The notes under the pieces are model-generated. The model was not told the DNA's origin, made no database searches, and saw nothing but the letters and a program-made list of their open reading frames with translations. The translations under genes were made by a program, and so were the position numbers. Positions 44,593 to 62,055 of a DNA stretch of 64,000 nt are shown in pieces. Source of the DNA: an uncultured Kordiimonas sp. (lineage in GTDB: Bacteria; Pseudomonadota; Alphaproteobacteria; Sphingomonadales; Kordiimonadaceae); the NCBI GenBank assembly GCA_947503625.1, contig CANNEK010000002.1, positions 620,001 to 684,000 of the forward strand, given 5' to 3'. Position 1 is the first letter of the stretch. Every line of letters begins with the position of its first letter.

Positions 44593-45945
44593 TCAAAATA
44601 TCAGGGAGAACTTAGCTCCACCACCTTCTCGTTCACCAAGGTTTACAGAGCCACCATGGGCTGTCATCACCTGTCGGGTTAATGCCAAACCAACGCCGCT
44701 GCCTTCGCGCTTCGTCGTGAAAAAAGGCACGAAGATACGCTTTGCGAGATCCGCCGGCACACCTGGTCCGTTATCGGCAATTTCAATTGTGACCCTTCCG
44801 CGCCTGTTTAGCCTTGCTGCCAGCCAAACGGTTGAATCCGGTGTGTCGGAAAGTGCCTGCCCTGCGTTTTGCAGCATATTGATCAACACCTGTTCGAGCA
44901 TCTCGCGATCTGCGGAAATATCCAGCTCATCCGGCTCAATGACAACATTCAGCCTAATGCCGCTATTGCGCCATTCTTTCTCGAACAATGTCGTGAGTTC
45001 ATTGAACATATCCTGTAAACGGATCAGCTTTTTTTTGGGTTCTGGCAGTCGTGTGAGGCTGCGATAGCTTGACACAAACTGGTTCAACTTGTCTGAACGG
45101 CGCGCTACCGTATTAACGGCATCTTTTACATCACCCAGTTCGGCAACAACCTCAGGGTTGTCCGTCACCTTTCTGGCGGCATCGTCCACCAGATCAACTG
45201 CCGTTTTTGCCAATGACGCGACCGGTGTGATTGAGTTCATGATTTCATGTGTCAATACACGAACCAGGTCCTGCCATGCTTGTAGCTGGGCGACGTCCAG
45301 CTCTGACTGGATATTCTGCAGGCTGAAGAGTTTCTCAGGCTTGCCATCAATAATTATTTTTGTCGCTACAAGCATCATCTGCTGCTCGACCTCATCGGCA
45401 TAAAAGGCAACCAGCCTGCGGTCTCCGGGACCAATTTCGGCCACTTCTTTTTGAAAAACTGTTCCGAATTGTGCGAGATCGTTGAGGTGAGTTGTCGACA
45501 GGCTGCCGAACAGTCGGCGGGCAGCATTGTTCCATACGGTGAGTGCCCCGTCCGAATAAAGTGATAATAGAGGCACCGGAACATGTTCAACAAGCGCCTT
45601 CAAATGTCTTAGCTCTTTTTCCTGCCCTGCCCTGACTTCCTGGAAGCGTTTCAGAATATCGGTGAAAGTTTCGCCCAGTTCGCCGAACCCTGCACCCAGG
45701 TCATGCATTCGGAAGCGCTGGCTGAAGTCAGCATAACGTGCGGCGTCCAGGAAGCGACTGATCTCGGCGTTGGTCCGTTGGACAAACTGGTATACTTCCA
45801 CCACCAGAAATACCAGTACACAGAAAGCCAGGAATGTAGCTGCATGATACCCGGGAATCGTGACCAGATAACTTAGCCCCATCAACATGAGCATGATGAA
45901 GACAAGCCGACCTGCAAGCAGGACGCTGAAGCGTTTAAAGCCCAT
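44593..45945 (-). CDS. NtrY-like sensor histidine kinase of the permease-array system
   Basis: The 450-residue kinase has two adjacent membrane helices (about 10-30 and 33-55) with only a very short external loop, a HAMP-like segment, a PAS region at about 115-215, HisKA with H233 in VLTHEIMNSI and a HATPase domain (NMLQNAGQALSD, DNGPGVP, GSGVGLALTRQV). The near-absence of a periplasmic domain suggests it senses the membrane or an intracellular signal. Its ATG overlaps the regulator gene by 11 nt, so they are coupled. It should control the activator at 45935-47350. Confidence 0.92.
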   Translation of the reverse strand: MGFKRFSVLLAGRLVFIMLMLMGLSYLVTIPGYHAATFLAFCVLVFLVVEVYQFVQRTNAEISRFLDAARYADFSQRFRMHDLGAGFGELGETFTDILKRFQEVRAGQEKELRHLKALVEHVPVPLLSLYSDGALTVWNNAARRLFGSLSTTHLNDLAQFGTVFQKEVAEIGPGDRRLVAFYADEVEQQMMLVATKIIIDGKPEKLFSLQNIQSELDVAQLQAWQDLVRVLTHEIMNSITPVASLAKTAVDLVDDAARKVTDNPEVVAELGDVKDAVNTVARRSDKLNQFVSSYRSLTRLPEPKKKLIRLQDMFNELTTLFEKEWRNSGIRLNVVIEPDELDISADREMLEQVLINMLQNAGQALSDTPDSTVWLAARLNRRGRVTIEIADNGPGVPADLAKRIFVPFFTTKREGSGVGLALTRQVMTAHGGSVNLGEREGGGAKFSLIF

Positions 45946-47350
45946 GTTTTTCCATCCTGCGATAGAGTGCTGCACGCGTGATACCTAACTCTTTAGCGGC
46001 GTGGCTAATATTGTACCTGTGTTTTTTGAGGGCCTCGGAAATCGCGCTTCTCTCCAACCGCTCAAGGTTTAGCTCATCGGGCACAACGCTTTGATCGGGC
46101 GCTTTCACCGCTATTGATGCCTCTGTTTGCTCAATGCTGGCTCCAGATCCGTCCATCTGGAAGTCGGAACGGACAAACTGGTCTTCGCTGGACAAGATAA
46201 CAGCTCGCTCAATGGAATGCCTCAGGGCGCGTACGTTGCCCGGCCAGGAATAGCCAAGCATGGTCTGCAGTGCTTCAGGCGAGAAGTCTTTCAGCGGTTT
46301 ATCATATTTTCTACAATATAGTTCGGCGTAATGGCGGGCAATTTCCGGAATGTCCTGGCTTCGTTCGCGCAGAGGGGGCACATGAATTTCGACTGTATTC
46401 AGACGAAACAACAAGTCTTGTCGGAAAATACTGTCATCCTTCAGTTTTTCCAATGGCAGGTTGGTTGCAGCAATTACCCTGATTTCTATCGGAACCGGTT
46501 TATCCGAGCCCACAGGAACCACTTTCCGTGTTTCCAGAACGGTCAGTAGTTTTGCCTGCAAGTGTAAAGGAAGGTTGCCAATTTCATCAAGAAATAGTGT
46601 GCCGCCTTCGGCTGCCTGCAACCGTCCCACACGGTCGTCGCGTGCATCTGTAAAAGCTCCTTTTTTGTGTCCGAAAAGTTCAGATTCAAAAAGGGATTCG
46701 GGTACTGCACCCAGATCAACAGACATAAAGATGTTTCCCGATCGCGCAGACAGCCTATGAAGCTCGCGGGCAACCAGCTCCTTGCCTGTGCCGTTTTCAC
46801 CTAAAATCAGAACATTGGCATCTGTTGGAGCTGTGCGTGCAATAACCGACAAGACTTCTGCAATTTCCGGGCTGTTACCAAGAATTGGTTGTGTTGGTCC
46901 GCTGGCAACCGCGGCAAGTGCCCTGTTGGTTTTTTTAAGTTTTTCGGCTTCGCTTCGGCTGCGGCGTAATTTGACGCTGGTTGACAAGGTGGCGACAAGC
47001 TTTTCATTTTGCCACGGTTTGGCGACAAAGTCTGTTGCGCCCTGTTTCATTGCCTCAACCGCTACATTTACGCCGCCATGTGCAGTGATCATGATGACAA
47101 CAGCATAAGGGTCCAGTTCGAGAATTCTGCCCAGCCAGAAGAAACCCTGTTTGCCGGTAGATTCGCCCGGACCAAAGTTCATATCCAGCAAAATAGCGTC
47201 GAAAGAATGTGCTGCCATCAAGGTGGGAACATTCTCCGGATTGTTACATGTTATCACTGTGTCGAAGTGTCGTTTCAGGAGTAATTTTACAGCGACCAGG
47301 ATATCCTCATCGTCGTCCACTATCAGGATGGCACCATTATGTGGCTGCAT
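45935..47350 (-). CDS. NtrC-family sigma-54 response regulator of the permease-array system
   Basis: The 471-residue protein has a receiver (acidic D12-D14, phospho-acceptor D56, K111), an AAA+ domain with Walker A GENGTGKE (184-191), the sigma-54 contact loop GAFTDA (231-236; the usual form is GAFTGA) and Walker B TLFLDEIG (251-258), and a C-terminal Fis-type helix-turn-helix (NISHAAKELGITRAALYRRM). It should bind enhancer sites and open sigma-54 promoters. Three identical palindromic sites and a sigma-54 promoter lie just upstream, pointing at the divergent transporter operon. ATG at 47350 is preferred to TTG at 47353. Confidence 0.95.
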   Translation of the reverse strand: MQPHNGAILIVDDDEDILVAVKLLLKRHFDTVITCNNPENVPTLMAAHSFDAILLDMNFGPGESTGKQGFFWLGRILELDPYAVVIMITAHGGVNVAVEAMKQGATDFVAKPWQNEKLVATLSTSVKLRRSRSEAEKLKKTNRALAAVASGPTQPILGNSPEIAEVLSVIARTAPTDANVLILGENGTGKELVARELHRLSARSGNIFMSVDLGAVPESLFESELFGHKKGAFTDARDDRVGRLQAAEGGTLFLDEIGNLPLHLQAKLLTVLETRKVVPVGSDKPVPIEIRVIAATNLPLEKLKDDSIFRQDLLFRLNTVEIHVPPLRERSQDIPEIARHYAELYCRKYDKPLKDFSPEALQTMLGYSWPGNVRALRHSIERAVILSSEDQFVRSDFQMDGSGASIEQTEASIAVKAPDQSVVPDELNLERLERSAISEALKKHRYNISHAAKELGITRAALYRRMEKHGL

Positions 47351-47378
47351 CAAAAGTCACTTTCTCATATATTCCAGA

Positions 47379-47394
47379 TGTTCGAAACCGTACA
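47379..47394. promoter_or_regulatory. Enhancer (UAS) site 1 for the NtrC-type activator
   Basis: TGTTCGAAACCGTACA fits the palindromic form TGTnCGnnnnCGnACA. It is the first of three copies between the activator gene and the transporter operon, centred about 118 bp before the predicted transcription start. It begins 28 bp before the activator start codon on the other strand, so it could also serve autoregulation. Confidence 0.75.
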
Positions 47395-47399
47395 CTCTG

Positions 47400-47415
47400 T
47401 GTTCGAAACCGTACA
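47400..47415. promoter_or_regulatory. Enhancer (UAS) site 2 for the NtrC-type activator
   Basis: This is an exact copy of site 1 (TGTTCGAAACCGTACA) starting 21 bp downstream, which is two turns of the DNA helix and places both dimers on the same face. That spacing favours cooperative oligomer assembly of an AAA+ activator. Confidence 0.75.
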
Positions 47416-47423
47416 GAAAAAAC

Positions 47424-47439
47424 TGTCCGAAACCGCACA
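47424..47439. promoter_or_regulatory. Enhancer (UAS) site 3 for the NtrC-type activator
   Basis: TGTCCGAAACCGCACA differs from sites 1 and 2 at two positions, and these two changes (T to C at positions 4 and 13) leave the conserved TGT/CG/CG/ACA bases intact. It starts 24 bp after site 2 and is centred about 73 bp before the predicted transcription start. Confidence 0.75.
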
Positions 47440-47478
47440 AATTCATTAAATACCTTTTAAAAGCAATGGTTTAAAATC

Positions 47479-47494
47479 TGGCATAGGCTTTGCT
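47479..47494 (+). promoter_or_regulatory. Sigma-54 promoter of the transporter operon
   Basis: TGGCATAGGCTTTGCT matches the sigma-54 consensus TGGCAC-N5-TTGCW with the invariant GG (47480-47481) and GC (47492-47493) separated by exactly 10 bp. The predicted start of transcription is near 47505. It lies 40 bp downstream of three activator sites and next to an NtrC-type activator gene, so the assignment is well supported by context. Confidence 0.85.
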
Positions 47495-47546
47495 GCTAAT
47501 GGGGTTCAACGAAAACATGCCGATAGCGGCAAACCCGAGAGACACG

Positions 47547-48896
47547 ATGGCCATGGAAAAAAAACAGGAAAGCGGAAATGCCATACCAATGTATGGCGGG
47601 AAAACACCAGGAACTGACAAAGCTGTTTCTGGTGCTGGCATGGATCGCCGCATCGAGAAGAAAAAAAATCCCTGGAAATTGGTAGGAATTGCTGCTGGCG
47701 TGCTTGTAGTGGCAGGGCTGGTCTGGATGCTGCTGGAGGACGCAGCGGGTGGCAGAACATTTCGCGTCAATGAGAGCCGGATCGTTATTTCAACGGTAAC
47801 CGAAGGCACTTTTGAGGACTTTATTCCAATTCGTGGCCGCGTTACGCCGTTGAAAACCGTTTTTCTCGACGCCGTCGAGGGTGGTCGTGTTGACCGTGTC
47901 ATGGTGGAAGACGGTGCTTTGCTTCAGAAAGGTGACCTGATTGTCGAATTGTCAAACGCCAACCTTCAGGTGAGCTTCACAGCTAACGAAACACGCGTTA
48001 CCGAGCAACTCAACAACATGCGCACTCAAGAGCTTCAGCTGGAGCAAAACCGCCTTGGTCACAAACGGAATCTGGTGGACTTTAATTATCAGATTACCCG
48101 GCTGACGCGGCAGGTTGAACGTGAACGTGAACTGGTTAAAACCAATGCTATTCCGATGCGCCAGCTTGAGGATACGGAAGATGACCTTCAGTATAATATC
48201 AATCGCCGTGACCTGACGCTTGAAAGCCAGGCTACGGATGCCCGGCTGCAGGAAAGCCAGCTTATATTTTTGCGCGAAGCATCAACCCGGCTTGAGGAAA
48301 GCCTGGTGGTTGCACGCAAAAACCTTGATGCTTTGAATGTCAGGGCCCCTGTTGATGGGAAGCTCTCTGGTTTCAACGTAGAGGTGGGTCAAAGCATTCC
48401 ACGCGGCGAGCGTTTGGGCCAGATCGACGATCCGGATAACTACAAACTGACAGCAAATATTGACGAGTTCTATCTGGGCCGGGTGGATTTGGGCCAGGAA
48501 GCCGTGTTCGAACGCGGTGGCCGCGATTACCGCATGACCGTTGCAAAGATATACCCACAGGTGACAAACGGGCAGTTTGAAGTGGATCTGGTGTTTGCGG
48601 ATGGCCAGCCAGACGATATCCGCCGGGGCCAGACCCTGCAAACAAAACTCACTCTGGGGGATGCGACCAAAGCGGCGCTCATTCCTAACGGCGCCTTTTA
48701 TCAGGATACTGGCGGCAACTGGGTATTTGTTGTTGCTGAGGATGGTGGTCAGGCTGTCAAGCGAACTGTCAGGCTGGGCCGCAGAAACTCTCGTTTTATC
48801 GAGGTTATCGAGGGCCTGGAGATTGGCGAGCGAGTGGTGACGTCGCCTTACAGCAGTTTTGTGGATATGGACCGATTGAGACTGACGAACGATTAG
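47547..48896 (+). CDS. HlyD-family periplasmic adaptor of the permease-array system
   Basis: The 449-residue protein has a cytoplasmic Lys-rich head, a membrane helix at about 47-65, a first lipoyl half (GGRVDRVMVEDGALLQKGDLIVEL), a long coiled-coil hairpin (about 140-255), the second lipoyl half (VRAPVDGKLSGFNVEVGQSIPRGE) and a beta-barrel/membrane-proximal part. It should connect the inner-membrane permeases to an outer-membrane channel. Upstream in-frame starts (47490, 47499) precede the predicted sigma-54 transcription start, so the ATG at 47547, with GAGAG before it, is chosen; 47517 is possible. Confidence 0.9.
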   Translation: MAMEKKQESGNAIPMYGGKTPGTDKAVSGAGMDRRIEKKKNPWKLVGIAAGVLVVAGLVWMLLEDAAGGRTFRVNESRIVISTVTEGTFEDFIPIRGRVTPLKTVFLDAVEGGRVDRVMVEDGALLQKGDLIVELSNANLQVSFTANETRVTEQLNNMRTQELQLEQNRLGHKRNLVDFNYQITRLTRQVERERELVKTNAIPMRQLEDTEDDLQYNINRRDLTLESQATDARLQESQLIFLREASTRLEESLVVARKNLDALNVRAPVDGKLSGFNVEVGQSIPRGERLGQIDDPDNYKLTANIDEFYLGRVDLGQEAVFERGGRDYRMTVAKIYPQVTNGQFEVDLVFADGQPDDIRRGQTLQTKLTLGDATKAALIPNGAFYQDTGGNWVFVVAEDGGQAVKRTVRLGRRNSRFIEVIEGLEIGERVVTSPYSSFVDMDRLRLTND

Positions 48897-49009: not shown

Positions 49010-49693
49010 ATGCTTAAACTGCACAATCTCTCAAAGGTCTATCAGACCGACGAGGTTGAAACCGTGGCACTCGACAACGTGAATATCGAGATCGAGTCCG
49101 GTGAATTTGTTGCCATCATGGGGCCTTCGGGGTGCGGAAAGTCCACACTGCTGAATATCGTTGGCATGCTCGATTCCCCGTCCAGCGGAGACTATATTTT
49201 CATGGATGAAAATGTTGCGGGGTACCCTGAGTCCAAACTCAGCAATATCCGCAAGCAAAACATCGGCTTCATCTTCCAGTCGTTCAACCTGATCGACGAG
49301 TTGACCGTGGAAGAAAACATCGAGCTTGCGCTGCTGTATCACAACATACCGGCCAGCGAACGCCGCGAGCGAGTGGCGCGTGTGATGGACAAGGTCGGCA
49401 TCGCTCACCGCGCCAAACATATGCCAAGCCAGCTTTCCGGCGGTCAACAACAACGTGTGGCGGTGGCCCGGGCTGTTGTTGGTGATCAGGCGATGATCCT
49501 CGCAGATGAGCCAACCGGTAACCTCGACAGCGCACACGGGCAGGAAGTGATGGAGATGCTGCAGTCCTTGAATGCTGAAGGCACAACCATCGTTATGGTA
49601 ACGCACAGCCCGGCACATGCTGACTATGCGCGGCGTACGATTAATCTGTTTGATGGTCATGTTGTTACCGAGAACCTGCGCGCTGCGGTGTAG
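49010..49693 (+). CDS. ABC ATPase of the permease-array system (MacB/LolD type)
   Basis: The 227-residue ATPase has Walker A GPSGCGKST (38-46), Q-loop Q90 (FIFQSFNLI), signature LSGGQ (142-146), Walker B ILADEP (163-168) and H-loop H199. It is of the MacB/LolD/FtsE branch. It is the only ATPase in the visible part of the operon and is followed by at least six permeases, so it must either serve all of them or share work with genes outside the window. AAAGGAAA precedes the ATG. Confidence 0.96.
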   Translation: MLKLHNLSKVYQTDEVETVALDNVNIEIESGEFVAIMGPSGCGKSTLLNIVGMLDSPSSGDYIFMDENVAGYPESKLSNIRKQNIGFIFQSFNLIDELTVEENIELALLYHNIPASERRERVARVMDKVGIAHRAKHMPSQLSGGQQQRVAVARAVVGDQAMILADEPTGNLDSAHGQEVMEMLQSLNAEGTTIVMVTHSPAHADYARRTINLFDGHVVTENLRAAV

Positions 49694-49714: not shown

Positions 49715-52180
49715 ATGTCACAGCTTTTAATTGGTTTGAGAGTTCTGAAGCGCCAGGGTCTGTATGGCCTCATGGCTATTCTGGGTCTGACTATCGGACT
49801 GGCTGTGGCTGTTATCGCGATGCTCTACACGTGGCAGGAAACACACTATGACAGCCACATTGAACGGGCAGACCGCATCTTTTTGATTGATGCGAAGGTT
49901 AGCCAGCCGGGGCGTACCGAAACCATCGTGGCTCAAGTGCCCGGTGCACTTTCCGAAAGCCTGAGGGGTACGGTTCCCGGCCTTGAGGACACAGCCAGGG
50001 TCTGGCGGCAATGGTCTTCACTGAAAATTGGTGATCGCTTCAACTTCAATCTGCCGGTCATCGGTGTTGAAGCGGCGTGGGTGGATATGATTGACTTGCC
50101 GATGGTTGCAGGTAGTTCAGACGCTATCGGGAATGATCTGTCCAGTGTTCTGATCTCCGCGAGTATGGCAACCAGACTTTACGGTGATGTGGACTCTGTT
50201 GGTCAGACTTTCGAGCTTGATGAAAACGCCATGCTGGTAACGGGCGTTTATCAGGACTTTCCAACCGCAAGCCACATTGAAGCTGACGTGATTATCCCCA
50301 GTAAGGCTGCAGCTATTACCCAGCGCGGTATCCGGATGGATGAAGACTGGAAAGGCTTCAATGTTTTCACTTATTTGCTGCTTGAAGACGGAGCGGACGC
50401 ATTGGTTGCCCAAACTGCTGTTGAAGAGATTTTACATCAGAATTTTCAGCTTGATGGGCGCTTCCCGCCGGAAATCACTGCGGCGGATATTGTTGATGTG
50501 TCGTTGCAGAGGCTTTCCGACCTTCACCTGAATGATCGTACTTACCCCTGGGGTGTCAAGCCGCCTGCCGATAAACTGAAGCTTGCGGTTTTCAGTGCGA
50601 TTGCGATTTTGATCGTGCTCATCGCTTGCGTTAATCATATCAACCTTTCGACCGTGCGATCAATTGAACGGGCGCGCGAAGTAGCACTTCGGAAAATTCT
50701 TGGCGCAGGACGGAAACAGCTGGTTGGTCAGTTTCTGCTGGAAGCCGCAATACTGGCGACTCTGGCGCTGGTTCTTGCCTTGACTGTTGTGGAGCTGATC
50801 GAGCCCTATGCCAGCGATATGCTGCAAACACAACTTGACCTCTCTGCATTAACTTCTGCTGGCTTCATTGGCTGGCTGGCATTGTTGCTGACGTTTGTCA
50901 TCGGGTCGGCAGGACTGTATCCTGCTTTCATCGTCAGTGCTGTCATGCCGGGGCGTGTGCTAGCCAGCCACAGCCGCGGCGCGAAAGGAAATGCACGCCT
51001 GCGGTCGGTACTCGTGATATTCCAGTTCAGTATTTCAATTACGCTTGCCATTGGTGCTGCGGTGATATGGAGCCAGCTGCGGTATGCCCGAACGGCTGAT
51101 CTCGGGTTTGATGCAGAAAATGTCATGATGCTATACGGCGTTGGTCGTGGCCCGGCGCAAACGGTCGCGCTGACCCGCGGCATTACACAATCTATCGATG
51201 GCTTGCCTGGTATTGTTACTGTGTCGGCCGCGAATTCCACACCTGCGTGGGATTATGTGCTCGAAGTATCGGTACGCAAACCTGCAGAGGCGCCGGAGTC
51301 GGCTCAGACGATGGGGCGTGTATCCGTAGATCTGAATTTCTTCGAGACGCTGGATATGGAGCCGGTCGCGGGAAGGCTGTTTAGTGAGGACTACGGGCTT
51401 GATCGCGGTCAGTGGGACCTGGAAACCCGCGGGTCGCTTGATTTACCGGTTATTATAAATGAGAGAGCGGTTGCCTCGCTCGGGTTCTTGTCAGCGGATG
51501 CGGCGATTGGTGAACAGGTTCAATTCACTCTCTCGGCGCAAGATGACCGAGCAGCGCGGATTGTTGGTGTGGTGGAAGACGTACATTTCAAATCGCTTAA
51601 AAATGCCATTCAGCCAATGGTCTATTACCCTGACCCTGCAATCTTCAACGTCATAATGGTTCGAATGGACCCCAACCAGCGTTCGATTGCGATGCAATCT
51701 ATAGAAGAAGGCTGGAACAAAGTAATGCCGAACCAGCCCATTAGCAGCGCTTTTTTGGCGTCAGCCCTTGCAGAACAATATGACCGTGAATCTCAAGAGT
51801 TAAAAACCGTCAGTGTGCTTGCGGGGCTCGGTATATTGATCGCTGTGTTCGGTCAGTATGGACTGGCTGCCTATAGCGCGCAGTCGCGTCGCCGCGAGAT
51901 CAGCATTCGCAAAGTCCTGGGCGCACGTGTTCGCGACATTCTTCAGCTGTTCGTCTGGCAGTTTTCCAAGCCTGTGTTCCTTGCGATGATTGTAGCCTGG
52001 CCGGTCGCATTTTATTTGATGACAGCCTGGCTGGAGAATTTCGTCTATCGGGTGACACCTAACCCATTGTGGTTCGTTTTGGCGGGTGTTGTTGCCTTGA
52101 TGGTTGCGCTTTTGACTGTAGCAAGTCATGCGCTCAAAGCGGCACGCGCTGCGCCTGTTGAAGCCCTGCGATACGAGTAA
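49715..52180 (+). CDS. Duplicated MacB/FtsX-type permease, array copy 1
   Basis: The 821-residue protein has two similar halves, each with one helix, a periplasmic MacB-type domain and three helices. Coupling motifs are RAREVALRKILGA in half 1 and RRREISIRKVLGA in half 2; the C terminus is VEALRYE. Its N terminus (MSQLLIGLRVLKRQGLYGLM) is the least like the other copies, which begin MFxNY. It starts 21 nt after the ATPase. One polypeptide could form a full transmembrane unit by pseudo-dimerisation. There is no ATPase domain. Confidence 0.92.
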   Translation: MSQLLIGLRVLKRQGLYGLMAILGLTIGLAVAVIAMLYTWQETHYDSHIERADRIFLIDAKVSQPGRTETIVAQVPGALSESLRGTVPGLEDTARVWRQWSSLKIGDRFNFNLPVIGVEAAWVDMIDLPMVAGSSDAIGNDLSSVLISASMATRLYGDVDSVGQTFELDENAMLVTGVYQDFPTASHIEADVIIPSKAAAITQRGIRMDEDWKGFNVFTYLLLEDGADALVAQTAVEEILHQNFQLDGRFPPEITAADIVDVSLQRLSDLHLNDRTYPWGVKPPADKLKLAVFSAIAILIVLIACVNHINLSTVRSIERAREVALRKILGAGRKQLVGQFLLEAAILATLALVLALTVVELIEPYASDMLQTQLDLSALTSAGFIGWLALLLTFVIGSAGLYPAFIVSAVMPGRVLASHSRGAKGNARLRSVLVIFQFSISITLAIGAAVIWSQLRYARTADLGFDAENVMMLYGVGRGPAQTVALTRGITQSIDGLPGIVTVSAANSTPAWDYVLEVSVRKPAEAPESAQTMGRVSVDLNFFETLDMEPVAGRLFSEDYGLDRGQWDLETRGSLDLPVIINERAVASLGFLSADAAIGEQVQFTLSAQDDRAARIVGVVEDVHFKSLKNAIQPMVYYPDPAIFNVIMVRMDPNQRSIAMQSIEEGWNKVMPNQPISSAFLASALAEQYDRESQELKTVSVLAGLGILIAVFGQYGLAAYSAQSRRREISIRKVLGARVRDILQLFVWQFSKPVFLAMIVAWPVAFYLMTAWLENFVYRVTPNPLWFVLAGVVALMVALLTVASHALKAARAAPVEALRYE

Positions 52181-52218: not shown

Positions 52219-54711
52219 ATGTTCCAGAACTATATACAGGTCGCGTTTAGAAATATTCTGGCCAACAAGCTATACAGTGCGATTAACATTATCGGGCTTG
52301 CCATTGGCTTGACAGCCTGTGTGCTGATCATGCTGTTTGTCAGGGATGAGCTTTCCTTTGATCGGTTTTGGGCAAAAAGCGACGCTATTTATCGCCTGCA
52401 CACCACATTTAATGTTCCTGGCCGCCAGCCCTTCATTACCTCCAGTGCTCAGGGGCCTGCCAGACAGGCCTTATTGAATTATTTTCCGCAGGAAATTGAA
52501 CAGGCGACACGTTTCGCCCAGTTTCAGCCGGTTGTCGAATATCAGGACAAGGTATTTTACGAGCGTGTCCACTGGGCTGACCGGGAAGCTGTCGAAATAT
52601 TCGATTTAACAGTGGTCGAAGGCGATATTCAGGCTGCAATGCAGGACAATTCCAGCATTGCGATCAATCAAAGCTTTGCGCATAAGTATTTCGGGGACAG
52701 GCCTGCTCTTGGCGAAGTGGTTTCAATGACAACTTTTGACCTTGTCAGGGATTATAAAGTTGCGGCCATTTTTGAAGATTTACCTCACAACACAGTGCTT
52801 GATTTTCAGGCGCTGACAGTGATTGACGAAAGTGACTTTACGTCTCAACCGGCGGTATTTACCGAGTGGTTTTCCCTGAACAACTGGTTGTTTTTCACGC
52901 TCAGGGATGGCGCCTCCATTACAACAATCGACAGTCAGTTACCGGCATTTGCAGATGCCTCGATCATTGTGCCGGGTGCTTTTCAGGAAGGCACGACAGC
53001 ATCTGATTTTGTCACCTATAGCACAATGAAGTTGCAGGATTTGCAGTTGAATGCACCCGGTGGCCGGGAGATGAAACCAACAGGTGATACTCAAACAGTC
53101 ACAATTTTCTCTGCCATCGCGGCGCTGGTTTTGTTGATTGCCTGTATCAATTTCACGAACCTAGCGACAGCAAAGTCAACACAGCGCGCCCGCGAAGTGG
53201 CACTGCGCAAGGTGCTGGGGGCCAGACGCCAACAGCTTGTTCAGCAATTTATTGGCGAGTCGGTTGTTGTTGCTCTACTTGCACTTTTCCTTGCCGTCGT
53301 ACTGGTTGAACTTCTATTGCCGTCGTATGGCGCATTTCTGGGCCGGGACCTCAGTTTTGACTATTCAGGTGGCTTCGGCCTTGGTTTGCTGGCTGGGCTG
53401 GTGCTGGTGGTTGGTATCGTTGGAGGGCTTTACCCTGCTGTGTTGCTATCCGGGTTTCGGCCTGCACGTGTTTTAAAAGCCAACCGGTCGGCAGAGTCTG
53501 CAGGATCAATAAGGCTTCGAGCCGGTCTTGTTATCCTGCAGTTCACGATATCAATCGCCCTTATTATTGCGACCGGGGTTGTCTTCGGCCAGATGGTATT
53601 TGCGGCGAAGCGTTACCCCGGCTTTAATAAAGACAACCTGATTGTCGTTCGCAATGTGTCGCGCCAGGGTGTTGTTGAAAAACAGGTTGCGCTTAAGGAA
53701 GAGATACTGCGCCTGCCTGGCGTCGTATCTGCAGCTTACGCTGACGATGTTCCTGCCACCAGCAATGAAAGCAATTCTTCTGTTACCATACCCGGAAATC
53801 CCGGACTCGGCGACATATTGATCGGCCGTCAAATCGTCGACCATGACTATTTCTCCACCTATGAAATCCCGTTAATCACAGGTCGCGATTATGACAGGGA
53901 TTATTCCGGAGACGGAATCCCTGACTTTGAAGGCGCCCGACCGGGTGAAGTTTTACAGGGTACGCTGGTTGTCAATCAGGCGGCACTGCCGCGGCTGGGG
54001 TTTGCTTCCGCAAAAGATGCAGTGGGCAAAAGAGTACAGATCCAAACCGGCAGTCCGGGCTCGGAGCCGGCTTTTGCCCAACTTGAAATTATCGGTGTAG
54101 CGGCGAATGCTCATTTTCGCTCCCTAAGGTCTGTGGTGCGGCCTGAGATGTATTACCTGCTCGAAGGTAATTTCAGGAACCTGACGATCCGATACACGGG
54201 CAATCCGGCAGAACTGGTTGAGCAGATAGAGTCCGTATGGCGGGAGCACGCACCAAATGTTCCGTTTACTTTCAGCTTTGCCGAGCAAGACATGGCGCGC
54301 TTGTATGCTCAGGAACACAGCCTGGCCACCATGCTCGGCACCTTCGCCTCTCTGGCAATTCTGGTTGCCTGTATGGGCCTTTATGGACTGGCAGCATTCA
54401 CCGCTGAGCGCCGCACGCGAGAAATTGGTATCAGGAAGGTTATGGGTGCCCGAGTAATGGACATAGTACGCTTGCTGGTTTGGCAATTCTCGAAACCGGT
54501 ATTACTGGCAAACCTGATCGCCTGGCCGTTAGCAGCATGGGGAATGCTCAACTGGCTTCAGGCGTTTCCCTACCGGCTCGATGAGTGGGTTCTGGTACCC
54601 CTGTGTCTCATCGCCGGTCTGATTGCATTGGCTATCGCCTGGTTTACGGTTGGCGGCAATGCAGCGAAAGTGGCAAGGGCAAACCCAATCAAAGCGCTTC
54701 GGTACGAATAA
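52219..54711 (+). CDS. Duplicated MacB/FtsX-type permease, array copy 2
   Basis: The 830-residue protein begins MFQNYIQVAFRNILANKLYSAINIIG, then a first helix near 20-42 (GLTACVLIMLFVRDELSFDRF). Coupling motifs are RAREVALRKVLGA and RTREIGIRKVMGA; the end is NPIKALRYE. It has two periplasmic domains of about 230 and 220 residues. The organisation resembles the roughly 800-residue ABC permeases abundant in Bacteroidetes. It is separated from copy 1 by 38 nt and from copy 3 by 10 nt. Confidence 0.93.
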   Translation: MFQNYIQVAFRNILANKLYSAINIIGLAIGLTACVLIMLFVRDELSFDRFWAKSDAIYRLHTTFNVPGRQPFITSSAQGPARQALLNYFPQEIEQATRFAQFQPVVEYQDKVFYERVHWADREAVEIFDLTVVEGDIQAAMQDNSSIAINQSFAHKYFGDRPALGEVVSMTTFDLVRDYKVAAIFEDLPHNTVLDFQALTVIDESDFTSQPAVFTEWFSLNNWLFFTLRDGASITTIDSQLPAFADASIIVPGAFQEGTTASDFVTYSTMKLQDLQLNAPGGREMKPTGDTQTVTIFSAIAALVLLIACINFTNLATAKSTQRAREVALRKVLGARRQQLVQQFIGESVVVALLALFLAVVLVELLLPSYGAFLGRDLSFDYSGGFGLGLLAGLVLVVGIVGGLYPAVLLSGFRPARVLKANRSAESAGSIRLRAGLVILQFTISIALIIATGVVFGQMVFAAKRYPGFNKDNLIVVRNVSRQGVVEKQVALKEEILRLPGVVSAAYADDVPATSNESNSSVTIPGNPGLGDILIGRQIVDHDYFSTYEIPLITGRDYDRDYSGDGIPDFEGARPGEVLQGTLVVNQAALPRLGFASAKDAVGKRVQIQTGSPGSEPAFAQLEIIGVAANAHFRSLRSVVRPEMYYLLEGNFRNLTIRYTGNPAELVEQIESVWREHAPNVPFTFSFAEQDMARLYAQEHSLATMLGTFASLAILVACMGLYGLAAFTAERRTREIGIRKVMGARVMDIVRLLVWQFSKPVLLANLIAWPLAAWGMLNWLQAFPYRLDEWVLVPLCLIAGLIALAIAWFTVGGNAAKVARANPIKALRYE

Positions 54712-54721
54712 GGAAACCGCA

Positions 54722-57145
54722 ATGTTTAAAAACTACATAGTCAGCGCATTGAGAAACATTCTGAAAAACCGGCTTTATGCTTTTATCAACATAGTCGGCC
54801 TTGCCTTGGGAATGGCTGTATATGTTTTTGGAACTGTTTTGGTTGACTACGAAAAAAATCATGACAGGCACTTTTCGAACGTAGACAGGATATACACACC
54901 TAATTCGTTGTTTTCGCCAAGTGCGAATATTGGAATGCGCAGCGCCGACACGGTTTATGCAGCTTTTGGAGACCATGTACGCGTGGGAATGCCGGAGCTT
55001 GAAGGCATAGCGCGTGTTCGTCGCGAGGAGTTTTTGTTCAGCGTAGGTGAGAAGGACTTTTATCAAGATATCCGGTTTACCGACCCGGACTTTACAAAAA
55101 TCTTTGACCTGAACTATCTGGCTGGTGATCACTCCGTTTTGCTAAACCCTTCGATGTTGATCATAACTGAATCTGTCGCGACACGCTTCTTTGGCTCTGA
55201 TGATGCTGTTGGTCAGACAATCATGCTTGATCATGAACTGGCTGTTACGGTCGGCGCCGTAGTTGAAGACCTGCCGGCCAATTCACATTTCAATTCATCA
55301 CTTCTTGGCGAAACAGATTTCGCAGTTGTAGCGAACTTTAAAGCACTAAACAGCTTACGCGGCTATGACCCTGCAACGGATTGGACTGATATTTCACTTG
55401 GTAACCGCACCTACATACTAATTCCTGATGATAAAGATTCCGCGTGGTTGGAGGCTGGTCTCCAGAACCTCTATGAACAGCACTATAGCGATGATCGAAA
55501 AGAGTTTGTTTCAGGCATTGGGATCGAGCCGCTGACAAGGGCAAATACCTACCTGTGGGAAGCCACAGGAATTCCTCTTCTGACAAGTGTCTCTATTTTG
55601 GCGCTTCTGGTTTTGGTCGTGGCATGTGTGAACTATACCAATCTTGCAACTGCTCAAAGTTTGGGAAGGGCAAGAGAAGTCGGGTTGCGCCGGACCCTCG
55701 GTGCTGAACGACGCCAGCTTCTGATCCAGTTTCTGTCGGAAAGCTTGGTCATAGCAATGATTGCAATGTTCCTCGCACTGGTTTTACTGGAACTTTTAAT
55801 TCCTGTGTTTAACACTTCGTTGGGCAAGATTGTGGAACTGGACTTTAGTCGTATTGTGCCTTGGCTTGCTTTGACTGTTCTGGTCGTTGGCCTTGCGTCC
55901 GGCGGATATCCCTCATATTTGATTACCCGCACCGACCCTATCCAGGCGCTTCGGGATGGCAAAACAGGTGGTGGCGCCGGAAACTTTCTTCGTTCAGGCA
56001 TGATTGGACTTCAGTTTGTTATTGCGATTTTCATGGTCGCGATAGTGATGGTGATGTACTTCCAGAATCAACGTGTCAAACAAACCATCAGTTTGTTTCC
56101 GTCAGAACAGATTCTGGTTTTGGAGCGTTTGAACGTTGAGGCCATTGAACCCAGGCTGGAAACCCTTCGGACGGAATTGAAGCGCTTGCCTGGTGTAGCC
56201 AACGTTTCCTATACCAATCAGGTTCCTTTCAATCAGAGCAATCGCACCTTTGATGCCGGCACAACGCCCGGTGACGCAAGTAAAACTTTTGGCATGAACC
56301 GCGTAAGAGTTGATCATGACTTTCTTGCGACCTTCGATATTCCACTTGTTGCGGGGCGCGATCTGTCACGCGAAGTTGCACAAGATGAAGTCAGTGGACC
56401 AACATTACCGGCCAATGTGTTGTTGAACGAATTGGCAACAAGTCAATTGGGGTTTGACGAGCCGGGGGACGCGGTCGGAAGTGTGTTTTTCAGGTTCGGT
56501 ACTGACGGATCGTCCCAACAGTTTACGATTGTGGGTGTTGTAGAGGATCAGAATTTTCTGGGCCTGCATAACAACGTCAAACCGTTCATGTTTTATGTCG
56601 ACGCTGACCGTTATTATGGTGCTGTCCGGCTAAGCCCTGACAACATAAACCAGACGATCCGGGAGATTGAAGCGGTCTGGGACAGGGTTATTCCGGATTA
56701 TCCGATGCAGAGCAAATTTCTGGATGAAGGGTTTGAGCAGGTTTATGTGATCTTTCGCTCGATCAATATCGCATTGTCGGGATTCGCCGTTTTGGCACTG
56801 TCTCTTGCTCTAATTGGCCTTTTTGGATTGGCTGCCTTTATGGCAGAGCAACGGACAAGGGAAATTGGTATTCGGCGTGTGTTGGGCGCGAGTGTTCCGC
56901 AACTGGTGCGTTTGCTGATCTGGCAATTTTCCAAACCTGTAATGTGGGCGCTGATTTTTGCGTTACCGCTCGCATATTTTAGCTCCAACCTCTACCTGAA
57001 CGTCTTTTCAGACAGAATAGATTCTCCCAGTACGGTTATTGTTATTGCCGGACTGATAGGCGTCGTTATGGCCTGGCTAATCGTTGCTGTGCACGCCAAT
57101 TGGGTGGCCCGGACCAATCCGATCAAAGCGCTTCGATACGAATAA
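54722..57145 (+). CDS. Duplicated MacB/FtsX-type permease, array copy 3
   Basis: The 807-residue protein begins MFKNYIVSALRNILKNRLYAFINIVG. Coupling motifs are RAREVGLRRTLGA and RTREIGIRRVLGA; the end is NPIKALRYE. Its first periplasmic domain is quite different from copies 2 and 4 (YTPNSLFSPSANIGMRSADT), which would fit a different cargo or partner. The start uses the AAGGAAA immediately after the copy 2 stop; an upstream in-frame ATG would overlap copy 2. Confidence 0.93.
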   Translation: MFKNYIVSALRNILKNRLYAFINIVGLALGMAVYVFGTVLVDYEKNHDRHFSNVDRIYTPNSLFSPSANIGMRSADTVYAAFGDHVRVGMPELEGIARVRREEFLFSVGEKDFYQDIRFTDPDFTKIFDLNYLAGDHSVLLNPSMLIITESVATRFFGSDDAVGQTIMLDHELAVTVGAVVEDLPANSHFNSSLLGETDFAVVANFKALNSLRGYDPATDWTDISLGNRTYILIPDDKDSAWLEAGLQNLYEQHYSDDRKEFVSGIGIEPLTRANTYLWEATGIPLLTSVSILALLVLVVACVNYTNLATAQSLGRAREVGLRRTLGAERRQLLIQFLSESLVIAMIAMFLALVLLELLIPVFNTSLGKIVELDFSRIVPWLALTVLVVGLASGGYPSYLITRTDPIQALRDGKTGGGAGNFLRSGMIGLQFVIAIFMVAIVMVMYFQNQRVKQTISLFPSEQILVLERLNVEAIEPRLETLRTELKRLPGVANVSYTNQVPFNQSNRTFDAGTTPGDASKTFGMNRVRVDHDFLATFDIPLVAGRDLSREVAQDEVSGPTLPANVLLNELATSQLGFDEPGDAVGSVFFRFGTDGSSQQFTIVGVVEDQNFLGLHNNVKPFMFYVDADRYYGAVRLSPDNINQTIREIEAVWDRVIPDYPMQSKFLDEGFEQVYVIFRSINIALSGFAVLALSLALIGLFGLAAFMAEQRTREIGIRRVLGASVPQLVRLLIWQFSKPVMWALIFALPLAYFSSNLYLNVFSDRIDSPSTVIVIAGLIGVVMAWLIVAVHANWVARTNPIKALRYE

Positions 57146-57155
57146 GGAAAACAGA

Positions 57156-59588
57156 ATGTTTCAAAATTACCTGAAAACCGCTGTCCGCAACTTGTTACGC
57201 CAGAAGCTTTTTTCGTTTATCAACATTGCGGGCTTGGCAGTTGGGCTTGCGGCCTTTCTGCTTATTCTTTTGTTCGTTCGTGACGAGATGTCCTGGGATC
57301 GACACTGGGGTGGCGGCGAGAATATCTATCGCGTGGAAACGACTATCCAGTTCCCTGTCCGGGAAGACCGTCCAACCTCCAACACAGCCACTCCGGTGAA
57401 AGACCTGCTGCTCGACACCTACCCTGAAATTGGGGATGTCACACGATATCTTGCTGGCAGTGCAACGTTCCAGCAGAGCGGTGACCTGTTCTCCGAGCGG
57501 GTTGCTTTCGCAGAAACCAACTTCCTGGATTTCTTCGGCTTCAGATTTCTACACGGCTCTGCCGAGACAGCTTTGGAAGACCAGAATTCCATTGTGATCA
57601 CTCAACAGATTTCGGAGAAGTATTTTCAGGATGAAGCACCCCTTGGCAAAACACTTTCGCTTAGGGTGGCTGGTGAATTCAGGGACTTCATCGTCACCGG
57701 TGTTATCGAGAACCCGGTTCGCACCACACACATGCGTGTTGACACAATCGTGCCATTTAACCGCGAATACTTCCAGGGTGCCCGTTGGTTCACTGACGAC
57801 TGGCGATTTGCGATCTGGTTGACCTACGTGCGGTTTGCGGAAGGGGCAAACGTTGCTGCCGTACAGGCTGATTTACCTGCTTTCATTGAGCGTCATATGC
57901 CGAAGAACGCCGGAGGCCAGGAAACCGGTCGCGAATTTAGTATGAAGCTTAACCTTGTAGCCCTGTCGGACATTCATTTGTACAGCAACGTTGCAACTGC
58001 AGATGCAGGAACGCTCTACGGGTTCGTTGGTATCGCTTTTTTGATACTGGCTATTGCCGTCGTGAATTTCCTGAATTTGTCTATGGCGCGGGTTGCGCAT
58101 CGTGCTCGCGAGGTTGCAATGCGCAAAGTTGTCGGGGCGCAACGTAGTCAGATTATACAACAGTTTTTGGGTGAATCGCTTTTCTTGGTGGTCATTTCTG
58201 TCATTGTTGCGCTGGTGCTCGTCGAGATCAGTTTACCCCATTACAGTGAATTTTTAACGTCCGTCATTGAGATGAATCTGCTGGGTGAACCCAGTCTCAT
58301 GGCTGCAATAGTGATCTTGTGTGTTGGTGTTGGTTTGAGTGCTGGCAGTCTGCATGCCATCTACTTCTCGATGATGCGTCCCAGAGATGTTCTTTATAGC
58401 AATACAAGCCCTGACGCCGGCGGTAGTAAACTGCGCTTGGGTTTGGTTGTTGCGCAGTTCTCGATTTCTGTCGCGCTGATGACCATCGCATTTTTCGTCA
58501 ATGAGCAGACCGAATACAGCCGTACGATGGATCTGGGTTTCAATGACCAGAATCTGATCGTTGTTGCGGGAACCAATAACACCAACTCTGAAGAGTTTAA
58601 GAACCGTATTTTACAAAGCCCGTTTATCAACGCCGTAGGCAGATCATCTGACGTACCAACCGAAGGCAGTGAAGACAGACTGACCATCCGCCCTGTATCG
58701 GCGGGAGAGACGGTTACTCTTGACGCATTGCCCACCGGCCCGGACTTTTTCCGTGTCTATCAGATACCTCTCATTGCGGGCCGTTACCTGAATGATAGCG
58801 AACAGGACACGCTTCGTCGCAGGGAGCAAAACGCGCAATATCAGGCGGCAGCAAACATTGTCGTCAACGAATCCGGCGCACGATTGCTGGGTTTTGATAA
58901 CCCTGCTGATGCTGTCAATCAGGTTATGCGCGCTGATATTACATCTGAACGTGTGGCCGAAACGCGCATCGTTGGCGTTGTGAAAGACTTCCACTTCGAC
59001 AGCGCACGAGACGTTATTCGTCCGGGTATCTACTATATCGATTACATGCGGCACTCAGACATGAGTGTTCGGATTGACGGCAACAACAGGGATGCTGCAA
59101 TTGGTGTAATTGAACAGGTATGGCGGGAGTTGTTTCCCGGTCGGGTCCTGAATTATCGCGATATGTCCGAGCTGGTGGAACGTCAGTATCAGGCTGATAC
59201 ACGACTTGCAGACATGCTGACAGCCTTTACCATTCTGGCAATTTCCATTTCCTGTTTGGGTTTGTACGGCTTGGCAGCTTTTACAGTTGAGCGGCGTACC
59301 CGAGAGATTGGCATCCGTAAAGTTCTGGGTGCAGACTTGCTTGATGTGCTCATGTTGCTGTTGTGGCAGTTTGCCAAACCGATCCTGATCGCCAACTTGA
59401 TTGCATGGCCCGTTGCTTTCTTCTTCATTAATGACTGGCTGGATGGCTTCGCCTACCGGATTGACCTTAATCTTGTCCCCTTCGTCATGACGGGGCTGCT
59501 GGCCCTGGTGATTGGCTGGTTCACAGTCGCGGGTCATGCGTTCCTGATTGCGCGCGCAAACCCCGTACGAGCGCTCAGGTACGAGTAA
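57156..59588 (+). CDS. Duplicated MacB/FtsX-type permease, array copy 4
   Basis: The 810-residue protein begins MFQNYLKTAVRNLLRQKLFSFINIAG. Coupling motifs are RAREVAMRKVVGA and RTREIGIRKVLGA; the end is NPVRALRYE. It starts 10 nt after copy 3, and the junction (AATAAGGAAAACAGAATGTTT) is almost the same as that between copies 2 and 3. All eight membrane segments and both periplasmic domains are present with no interruption. Confidence 0.93.
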   Translation: MFQNYLKTAVRNLLRQKLFSFINIAGLAVGLAAFLLILLFVRDEMSWDRHWGGGENIYRVETTIQFPVREDRPTSNTATPVKDLLLDTYPEIGDVTRYLAGSATFQQSGDLFSERVAFAETNFLDFFGFRFLHGSAETALEDQNSIVITQQISEKYFQDEAPLGKTLSLRVAGEFRDFIVTGVIENPVRTTHMRVDTIVPFNREYFQGARWFTDDWRFAIWLTYVRFAEGANVAAVQADLPAFIERHMPKNAGGQETGREFSMKLNLVALSDIHLYSNVATADAGTLYGFVGIAFLILAIAVVNFLNLSMARVAHRAREVAMRKVVGAQRSQIIQQFLGESLFLVVISVIVALVLVEISLPHYSEFLTSVIEMNLLGEPSLMAAIVILCVGVGLSAGSLHAIYFSMMRPRDVLYSNTSPDAGGSKLRLGLVVAQFSISVALMTIAFFVNEQTEYSRTMDLGFNDQNLIVVAGTNNTNSEEFKNRILQSPFINAVGRSSDVPTEGSEDRLTIRPVSAGETVTLDALPTGPDFFRVYQIPLIAGRYLNDSEQDTLRRREQNAQYQAAANIVVNESGARLLGFDNPADAVNQVMRADITSERVAETRIVGVVKDFHFDSARDVIRPGIYYIDYMRHSDMSVRIDGNNRDAAIGVIEQVWRELFPGRVLNYRDMSELVERQYQADTRLADMLTAFTILAISISCLGLYGLAAFTVERRTREIGIRKVLGADLLDVLMLLLWQFAKPILIANLIAWPVAFFFINDWLDGFAYRIDLNLVPFVMTGLLALVIGWFTVAGHAFLIARANPVRALRYE

Positions 59589-59610
59589 AAGAAATACAAG
59601 GGGGAAACCG

Positions 59611-62055
59611 ATGTTTCAAAACTACTTGCTGGTAGCGTTCAGAAACCTGATAAAAAACAGGCTGTATAACACGATCAACGTGGGTGGTATGTCGGTTGGG
59701 CTGGCGGCATGCATCATGATTTTGCTGTTCGTCGATCACGAGCTTTCCTACGACAAATGGATCCCTGATCATCACCGCGTATTGCGTGCAGAATCGGTAA
59801 TCGACTTTGAAGGCGCCCCTGCGAATGATGCCGATAATATCCCGCCGGTCTTTGGGCCCATTATGGCAGAGCAACTCAGCGAGGTAGAAATCAGCGTCCG
59901 GCTTGTTGGCAATGGTATCGCGGTGTCGACTGATGACAAAGCATTTGAGCAGGATGTGATGCTTACTGATCCGGCATTTTTCGAAATGTTTGGCATTGAC
60001 CTGATCGCCGGTAATGCTGCCGCAGCGTTAAACAGTCCGGACAGTATTGTACTGAGCCAGTCAGACGCTGAGCGTATTTTTGGCACAGAGCCAGCTGTCG
60101 GCAAAACCATCAAGGCCAATGGCGAGTTTTCACTTAAAGTCACCGGCGTCATGCCGGACTGGCCGATTCTGTCTGATCAGCAAGTTAGAGCTGTGGTGCC
60201 CTTTTCGTCTCCGATTATTGATGATCAGCCCTGGTTGCGGGAAAACTGGGGCTCCTTCTCTGGCGTGACGTATGTACGTATGGCAGAGGGAGTTGATGTT
60301 GCCGCGCTGACGAGTGTGGTTAATGACCTCGCTCGGCGCATAGCCCCGGACTGGGTCTACAAAGAGCCTGCAGAACGAGGCTTGCCGCCAGTTCTGGAAT
60401 TTCATTTTACACCTGCGATTGACGCGCATCTGAAATCGGACTCAGGTTTTGGAGCGACTGGCGGCTCCCGTGGCAGTGTGGCGGCTCTCTGGGCTGCGGC
60501 CATTGTCGCCATGCTCATTTTGGCGATTGCCGTAATGAACGTAACAAACCTGGGAACCATGCTGGCGCTTAAGCGTGTGCAGGAGGTGACCATCAGGAAG
60601 GCGCTGGGCGCCAAGGCAAAACACCTTGTTTTTCAAATTCTGACAGAGGCAATTCTGCTCTCTTTCATTTCCATGATGGTCGGTTTGGTGCTTGTCGAAC
60701 TCTTGTTGCCGTCTTTCGGCACGATGATGAACAGGTCGCTTTCGACAGCACCGCTTTATCAAGTAGGTGTTATGGTGCCACTGGCATGCTTTGCCTGTGT
60801 GATCGGTTCCATCAGTGGTTTGTATCCAGCGTTGGTAGCCGCGCGTTTTCGGCCGATTGATCACTTGAACGGCGTATCTCCAAAAATAGGTATACGCTTC
60901 AGAAATATTCTGATGGTTGCCCAGTTTGCCGCGACAATCGGATTGCTGGCGACATGTTTTGTGGTTTTCCAACAGGCGCGCTATGCCCAGTCTCGCGACC
61001 CGGGTTTCAACAGTGCCCAACTGATTGCGATTAGCGGAATGGAGCGGCCGGTCACACTGGCCAGTGAAAAAACCTATCGGGATATTGTTTCTCGTATTCC
61101 AGGCGTCGAAGCCGTTGCAGCCAGTCACACAGCACCTGGATACAATTATAACAATAGAGGTGGAGGCTCGGTCGATGGTGGTCCGCAGGTGAACTTGAGG
61201 CGCGTCGCTGTTTCGAAAGAGTTTTTCGAAACAATGAGTATTTCCCCTCTTGCTGGCCGGGTGTTTTCAAGCGACAGGCTCTCGGACGAGATTGCGGAAC
61301 AAACACTTCCGGACGGGGACGTTGCCAGGAGCGGGCCGGTTGTTTTAAACCGGACAGCAGCCCGCGAGTTGGGCCTTGAGAGTCCCGAAGCGGCCATTGG
61401 GCGGGCTATTCAATTTGGCAGGAACAGCCAGCTGACAATCGTCGGAGTGATCGAGGACCTGCGCATGCAATCCGTTCGTGCGGCGCCACAACCTTCGTAT
61501 TTCTGGATTGGGCCTGATGAATACCGGCATGTGATTGTCAGGATTTCCAGAAATAACATGGCAGCAACACTTGCAGCTATTGACCAGGCCTGGCGTGATC
61601 AGTTCCCTGATATCCCTATTCAGCGCCAGTTTCTCGATGAAGCCTTTGCTTCATATTATGATGCAGAACGTCGGCGGGGCTGGCTTCTGCTCGGCAGTTC
61701 GATCGTGATGATTATTATAGCGACGGTTGGGCTTTTTGCGCTTTCTGCGCTGACAACAGAAAGGCGTGCGCGAGAAATTGTTATCCGCAAGGTTTTGGGC
61801 GCCCGCCCGCAAAATATTGTCAATCTGCTTTTGTGGCAGTTTTCAAAACCGGTTCTGTTGGCCAACCTTATTGCCTGGCCACTCGCCTGGTATGCCCTGC
61901 AGGACTGGCTTGAGGCATTTGTTGATCGTGTCGACCTTTCGCCCTTGCCATTTGTAACCGCTGGTTTCCTGGTGTTGCTGATTGCTGGCACAGCGATTGT
62001 GGGGCAGGCACTCTTTCTATCGCTTTCGAACCCGGCGCGGATACTCAGACAGTGA
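59611..62055 (+). CDS. Duplicated MacB/FtsX-type permease, array copy 5
   Basis: The 814-residue protein begins MFQNYLLVAFRNLIKNRLYNTINVGG. It departs from the other copies at the coupling motif of half 1 (RVQEVTIRKALGA) and at the C terminus, which reads ARILRQ instead of ALRYE. Half 2 keeps RAREIVIRKVLGA. AAGGGGGAAA precedes the ATG. The differences suggest an older or more specialised copy. No truncation or frameshift is seen. Confidence 0.93.
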   Translation: MFQNYLLVAFRNLIKNRLYNTINVGGMSVGLAACIMILLFVDHELSYDKWIPDHHRVLRAESVIDFEGAPANDADNIPPVFGPIMAEQLSEVEISVRLVGNGIAVSTDDKAFEQDVMLTDPAFFEMFGIDLIAGNAAAALNSPDSIVLSQSDAERIFGTEPAVGKTIKANGEFSLKVTGVMPDWPILSDQQVRAVVPFSSPIIDDQPWLRENWGSFSGVTYVRMAEGVDVAALTSVVNDLARRIAPDWVYKEPAERGLPPVLEFHFTPAIDAHLKSDSGFGATGGSRGSVAALWAAAIVAMLILAIAVMNVTNLGTMLALKRVQEVTIRKALGAKAKHLVFQILTEAILLSFISMMVGLVLVELLLPSFGTMMNRSLSTAPLYQVGVMVPLACFACVIGSISGLYPALVAARFRPIDHLNGVSPKIGIRFRNILMVAQFAATIGLLATCFVVFQQARYAQSRDPGFNSAQLIAISGMERPVTLASEKTYRDIVSRIPGVEAVAASHTAPGYNYNNRGGGSVDGGPQVNLRRVAVSKEFFETMSISPLAGRVFSSDRLSDEIAEQTLPDGDVARSGPVVLNRTAARELGLESPEAAIGRAIQFGRNSQLTIVGVIEDLRMQSVRAAPQPSYFWIGPDEYRHVIVRISRNNMAATLAAIDQAWRDQFPDIPIQRQFLDEAFASYYDAERRRGWLLLGSSIVMIIIATVGLFALSALTTERRAREIVIRKVLGARPQNIVNLLLWQFSKPVLLANLIAWPLAWYALQDWLEAFVDRVDLSPLPFVTAGFLVLLIAGTAIVGQALFLSLSNPARILRQ

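Follow-up and report, generated by a model that had tools for sequence, protein, structure and literature searches.

Paired palindromes and predicted sigma-54 promoters at an NtrC-type regulator/exporter locus and at scattered permease genes

Regulator, exporter operon and putative control region

The window (the whole 64 kb stretch of DNA analysed) carries on its reverse strand overlapping genes for a sensor histidine kinase (44593–45975; HATPase_c, PF02518, 1.7e-21) and an NtrC-type response regulator (45935–47353), the latter starting with a TTG at 47353 and having an ATG at 47350. Hydropathy peaks at approximately residues 20–35 and 45–59 of the kinase predict two membrane segments joined by only a short loop, and the protein would thus be of the intramembrane-sensing type. 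The regulator contains receiver (PF00072), sigma-54 AAA+ (PF00158, 5e-62) and Fis-type helix-turn-helix (PF02954, 8.8e-14) domains, all scoring above the gathering score, which identifies it as NtrC-type and bears out the original prediction of a divergent AAA+ sigma-54 activator with a Fis-type DNA-binding domain. Where the sigma-54 contact loop is GAFTGA, the window regulator has GAFTDA; the first such motif per locus was GAFTDA in 72 and GAFTGA in eight of 80 distant loci, and among 29 nearer loci it was GAFTDA in 17, GSFTDA in four, GAFTGA in seven and GAFTNA in one. A single rpoN copy above cut-off is present in the window's genome, together with eight further strong matches to sigma-54 activators that cover the AAA+ region. 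The best-scoring NCBIfam model for the regulator was PrsR (TIGR02915), and membership was rejected at 356.4 bits against a cut-off of 502.6.

Divergent from the regulator on the forward strand are genes for a periplasmic adaptor of the HlyD/RND-MFP type (47547–48896; PF13437, 7.4e-15), an ABC ATPase (49010–49693; PF00005, 1.2e-33) and six ADOP-like permeases (49715–52180, 52219–54711, 54623–57145, 57084–59588, 59548–62055 and 62106–64000). Coordinates for the third, fourth and fifth permeases are those of the longest frames, the true start of the third probably being later, and the sixth runs past the window edge with its match ending at G000:C2:684613. The domain scan covered the first two of the six, and both contain MacB_PCD and FtsX domains. 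These proteins are referred to as ADOP-like because the best ADOP (TIGR03434) score in the genome, 303.7 bits, falls below the curated cut-off of 622.3. The nearest curated families for the adaptor and the ATPase were DarC (NF038010; 221 of the 450 bits needed) and DarD (NF038007; 273 of 375) respectively, and with a DarB score of 129 of 700 bits membership of the darobactin exporter family was rejected.

Between the regulator and the exporter operon lie three copies of the palindrome TGTnCGnnnnCGnACA, starting at 47379, 47400 and 47424, followed by a predicted sigma-54 promoter, TGGCATAGGCTTTGCT, at 47479–47494 on the forward strand, which has the GG-N10-GC form in a TGGCA/TTGC context. Putative enhancer sites 1 (47379–47394) and 2 (47400–47415) both read TGTTCGAAACCGTACA and their starts are 21 bp apart; putative site 3 (47424–47439), TGTCCGAAACCGCACA, starts 24 bp further on. 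The promoter begins 39 nt past site 3 and 63 bp past site 2, and transcription of the adaptor operon is predicted to start near 47505. Three palindromes with a correctly spaced promoter had been claimed on inspection of the DNA and were recovered at the same positions, all three sites matching the pattern perfectly, and the two positions at which site 3 differs are free in the pattern, as expected from the claim that they spare the conserved arms. At one or fewer mismatches the site pattern has exactly three matches in the window, all with no mismatches. This raw count is not in itself significant, since 44 of 100 shuffles reach three (shuffle mean 2.39); the striking part is that three perfect copies lie inside 61 bp. 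The strict promoter pattern TGGCA[C/T]-N5-TTGC[T/A] matches the window once, at 47479–47494. A looser form, TGGCA-N6-TTGCT with up to two mismatches, gave 111 matches over the whole window against a shuffle mean of 85.5, with none of 100 shuffles reaching 111, an excess that possibly reflects coding bias. Site 1 is approximately 26 nt from the start of the regulator gene, for which a search for a sigma-70 type promoter found none.

Distribution of paired sites and promoters in the genome and in relatives

In the whole genome (4.07 Mb) there are nine exact sites, against three for the reversed pattern. Six of the nine belong to paired-site units, and the other three fall within listed open reading frames. 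With one or fewer mismatches the single motif occurs 149 times and the reversed control 195 times. Counting of single motifs was dropped as evidence on this ground, and the signal therefore resides in pairing combined with a promoter rather than in single sites. Strong ADOP-like matches (254–304 bits) number 11, as they again do at E ≤1e-40, and are organised in six transcription units consisting of the window operon and five orphan genes. All six units have two or three sites with no or one mismatch and a GG-N10-GC promoter: three sites precede the window operon, and the orphan genes have two exact sites 22 bp apart with TGGCACGCTACTTGCT (C3:329746), sites 22 bp apart with TGGCACGAAATCTGCT (C3:715219, reverse strand), 33 bp apart with TGGCCCACTGTTTGCT (C1:715864), 20 bp apart with TGGCACAGAGATTGCT (C3:429009) and 21 bp apart with CGGCATGTTCCTTGCG (C5:11990, reverse strand). 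The genome-wide recurrence that the original prediction called for is thus found at all five of the other strong matches. Seven weaker permease matches (50 bits or fewer) had no site plus promoter within loci reaching 1.5 kb before the match, and no ATPase or adaptor homologue was found in the stretches examined around the five orphan genes. A relaxed pattern gave eight matches in this genome, comprising the six permease units, an M61-peptidase-like gene at C3:685770 and C1:64488; over 14 genomes it gave 65 matches against four for the reversed control.

A regulator search at E ≤1e-100 found matches in 36 of 59 genomes, including the window's own, and 29 of the 35 relatives' loci were examined. 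At 29/29 of these loci the promoter is kept together with one or more sites (one or fewer mismatches), and a divergent adaptor gene is present at every one, so that the arrangement proposed for orthologous loci is retained. At least two sites are present at 28 and three at 13 of the 29; of the three-site control region first described, the promoter and a minimum of one site therefore stand and the third site is optional. Across six close relatives the sites and promoter have an identity of 0.88 against 0.43 outside, in a footprint rank test that treats columns as independent and on an alignment possibly anchored by the sites themselves. Mean identities are 0.96 for site 1, 0.92 for site 2, 0.75 for the less conserved site 3 and 0.88 for the promoter, and 0.34–0.60 in the stretches between them.

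A combined pattern of promoter plus one site 45–75 bp apart was then scanned in 29 family genomes and gave 59 matches in 25 of them, against none for the reversed control; the pattern was derived from the window genome's own units, and its five matches there are not independent. Adaptor or ADOP-like permease genes follow 48 of the 59 matches (26 of 30 loci, 12 of 16 loci, seven regulator-adjacent matches with the adaptor confirmed and three of the genome's own units). Of the others, six precede a small peptide frame, two an M61-like gene and one an S41-like peptidase gene. The last two are a regulon-type promoter before what by eye is an apparent truncated permease start and one before no frame (L247 and L252), possible remnants of lost permease genes. 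The four family genomes lacking the combined pattern (G004, G009, G022 and G024) are the four lacking a regulator match, an absence that is partly trivial because the main promoter adjoins the regulator. Strong ADOP-like matches number none in G004 and G024, one in G009 and three in G022, where an adaptor-ATPase operon start lies on a short contig and the missing regulator match is possibly due to a contig break.

Thirty further orphan permease genes were picked by hand from relatives, 27 of them from genomes with a regulator match. A strict site pair plus promoter precedes 17 of the 30, compared with 0/900 dinucleotide shuffles. All 17 are among the 27 from regulator-bearing genomes; none was found for the three from genomes lacking a regulator match, one of which is cut by a contig end and one of which lies in an adaptor-ATPase operon. 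Ten of the 27 lack the strict pattern: three of these retain a single site at 91–92 bp from a promoter, and in a fourth a site with one mismatch is 90 bp away from a poorly matching promoter. For the other six (L318, L338, L339, L340, L341 and L342), whose genomes do carry the regulator, the covered sequence ahead of each gene start shows no recognisable element, and they presumably answer to another control or have lost this one. The site-pair plus promoter rule is thus complete in the window's genome and incomplete in relatives.

Site pairs were also compared with the regulator's DNA-binding helix across phyla, by scanning 78 of 80 distant loci for paired TGT-N10-ACA motifs 19–24 bp apart. 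Pairs were present at 14/16 loci whose regulator has the helix TRA[AS]LYRRMEK (Alpha- and Gammaproteobacteria and Bacteroidota), 3/3 with SRGALYRRLEK and 1/1 with TRGALYRRLEK, at 0/22 with TRTALYRRL[SG]K and at none in the remaining classes, and in 1/3900 base shuffles; since members of a single helix class are relatives of one another, the 14/16 and 0/22 counts do not amount to 38 independent events. This match between helix class and sites links the sites to the neighbouring regulator better than adjacency alone. Many of the loci L124–L166, with helix TRTALYRRLSK, share the regulator/exporter layout and are without TGT-N10-ACA pairs.

Peptidase and peptide genes with the same site-and-promoter pattern

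The M61-peptidase-like gene constitutes a seventh unit in the window's genome (G000:C3:685770; L199, reverse strand, 6217), with sites 21 bp apart and a promoter, and its product is a membrane protein with PF17899 and PF05299 domains. A look-alike of this gene at L244 (G015) also has the site-plus-promoter pattern, and at L248 (G005:C59:16461) a site and promoter precede an S41-peptidase-like gene.

A gene for an arginine-tailed peptide of 31–42 residues is present in 6/29 family genomes, all of one genus (G001, G002, G005, G007, G011 and G012), at loci L254:2318, L255:500, L256 and L257 (both reverse strand), L258 (reverse strand) and L263:1501. The search pattern for the arginine tail lacked AGG and AGA codons and found two of the 29 genomes; use of the plsC neighbour gave all six. 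Neighbours of the peptide genes are plsC and a frame that appears PilZ-like by eye. Paired sites 22–23 bp apart, the proximal one 62–63 bp from the promoter (for window site 2 the gap is 63 bp), are followed by the promoter, a purine-rich ribosome site and the 31–42 codon frame, after which a terminator-like stem was seen by eye in 5/6 cases. Invariant features are M1 and an RRxRR motif near the end, and arginine codons vary among CGT, CGC, CGG, CGA, AGG and AGA; an RRxRR kept despite such varied codons suggests that selection acts at the protein level.

A profile of the peptide run over 196 genomes of the order recovered the same six at E ≤1.1e-12; the next best match was at 0.003, and weak matches up to E of 1 brought the total to 117 genomes. 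None of 24 weak loci examined had paired sites; at one of them a lone site with one mismatch precedes a poor match to the promoter. In the window's genome the profile found no peptide. Pfam (three of the six peptides) and NCBIfam (all six) gave no match and, as judged by these comparisons, the arginine-tailed peptides are a new family.

Proposed circuit, alternatives and known systems

The control region very probably serves a dedicated sigma-54 regulon, in which the kinase-regulator pair would drive the local operon and scattered permease genes. Following this reading the membrane kinase (44593–45975) would phosphorylate the divergent NtrC-type regulator (45935–47353), which would bind paired TGTnCrnnnnyGnACA palindromes approximately 20–33 bp apart and activate RNA polymerase-sigma-54 at -24/-12 promoters starting some 58–74 bp past the pair's proximal site, with site 3 of the window as an additional, nearer site, 39 bp from its promoter. 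Targets would be the adaptor-ATPase-permease operon and single permease genes, each with its own similar promoter, and the orphan permeases would share the operon's one adaptor and ATPase. One switch thus probably turns on the window operon and five scattered export-pump genes. The analysis establishes the sequence anatomy, genome-wide distribution, conservation and match between helix class and sites described above; phosphorylation, binding, rpoN dependence and subunit sharing are steps that we infer. The original prediction that the kinase/regulator pair switches on the permease array gains support from both the genome-wide and the ortholog comparisons, with the amendment that the regulon is wider than the local array.

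Short palindromes and GG-N10-GC elements are common, and the one-mismatch motif shows no excess over its reversed control (149 against 195); the combined pattern, however, occurs 59 times against none for the reversed control, and strict pairs precede 17/30 orphan permeases against 0/900 shuffles, and a coincidence, of negligible probability, was rejected on these counts. It is very improbable that a different regulator, whether sigma-54 activator or repressor, reads the palindromes and that the neighbouring regulator acts elsewhere. Eight further strong activator matches in the genome could supply such a protein and the 26 nt or so between site 1 and the regulator start leave room for a repressor, but sites and promoter lie beside this regulator at all 29 relatives' loci, the sites track its helix class across phyla, and in scattered units their distance from -24/-12 promoters is that of enhancers.

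Other readings concern the signal and the cargo. A Bce module consists of an OmpR-type regulator, an intramembrane-sensing kinase and a BceAB transporter, and in a circuit of this type the permeases themselves would detect a peptide and pass the signal on to the loop-less kinase, giving self-adjusting detoxification or repair rather than secretion. This is a real, if minority, possibility, and it is compatible with the dedicated regulon since it concerns the signal. The two membrane segments of the kinase with their very short loop, the FtsX and MacB_PCD domains of the permeases and the known coupling of such kinases with FtsX-like permeases in Bce modules (BceRS-BceAB) are in its favour; the kinase topology is compatible, but an NtrC-type regulator stands where a Bce module has an OmpR-type one, and the permeases resemble MacB and come with a periplasmic adaptor. 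Somewhat less probable is that the exporter carries the arginine-tailed peptide as cargo or responds to it as a signal. Such a role would fit its paired sites, promoter and 31–42 residue frame in 6/29 genomes with the spacing of window site 2, its invariant RRxRR with varying arginine codons, and an adaptor and ATPase that score best, below cut-off, against darobactin export parts. Against it, similarity searches recovered no such peptide from the window's genome or from other exporter-bearing relatives, no modification enzyme was identified, and co-regulation differs from transport. Unlikely, though consistent with the same genes, is a complete peptide secretion and processing regulon in which interchangeable permeases would share the adaptor-ATPase, with M61/S41-type peptidases and, in one group of relatives, the arginine-tailed peptides as cargo or inducer.

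Like NtrC, ZraR and GlrR, the regulator of the dedicated regulon proposed here combines receiver, AAA+ and Fis-type helix-turn-helix domains, and its putative palindromes have their centres approximately 70–120 bp ahead of the predicted transcription start and precede a -24/-12 promoter. It differs from them in its palindrome, its GAFTDA loop and its permease targets; the GlrR site, TGTC-N10-GACA, is 2 bp longer than the window palindrome. In comparison with DarBCD, to whose DarC and DarD parts the adaptor and ATPase come closest below cut-off, the window operon has six permeases. An enhancer code tied to one regulator would turn unannotated scattered permeases into a defined regulon and predict its members in genomes with the same helix class, and the putatively co-regulated peptidases and new small-peptide family offer testable clues to pump function.

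PrsK/PrsR (TIGR02916/TIGR02915), which regulates PEP-CTERM genes with RpoN, supplies the best NCBIfam model for the window regulator, below cut-off, and differs in that the targets here would be exporters; an rpoN-dependent -24/-12 promoter has been reported for a PEP-CTERM gene (PMC9850573). In gamma-Proteobacteria, Opitutia and Bacteroidia, a 2025 PLoS One survey found predicted sigma-54 promoters enriched at COG0577, a result that it presents as first evidence for FtsX-like permeases (PMC12316311). The same permease superfamily is thereby linked to sigma-54 promoters there and here, and this connection is already in print. The survey's COG0577 result, in the parts of the article consulted, concerns promoter enrichment; it includes no dedicated regulator, no enhancer sequence and no regulon of dispersed single genes, and it does not name Alphaproteobacteria (PMC12316311). 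A search of the open-licence PMC literature did not find the dedicated regulator, enhancer code, dispersed orphan regulon or peptides. The circuit's breadth and new targets raise its interest above the routine. MacB/FtsX permease arrays lie beside such regulators from Proteobacteria to Bacteroidota, and the divergent regulator/exporter layout also occurs in Zixibacteria, KSB1 and Chlorobiota records.
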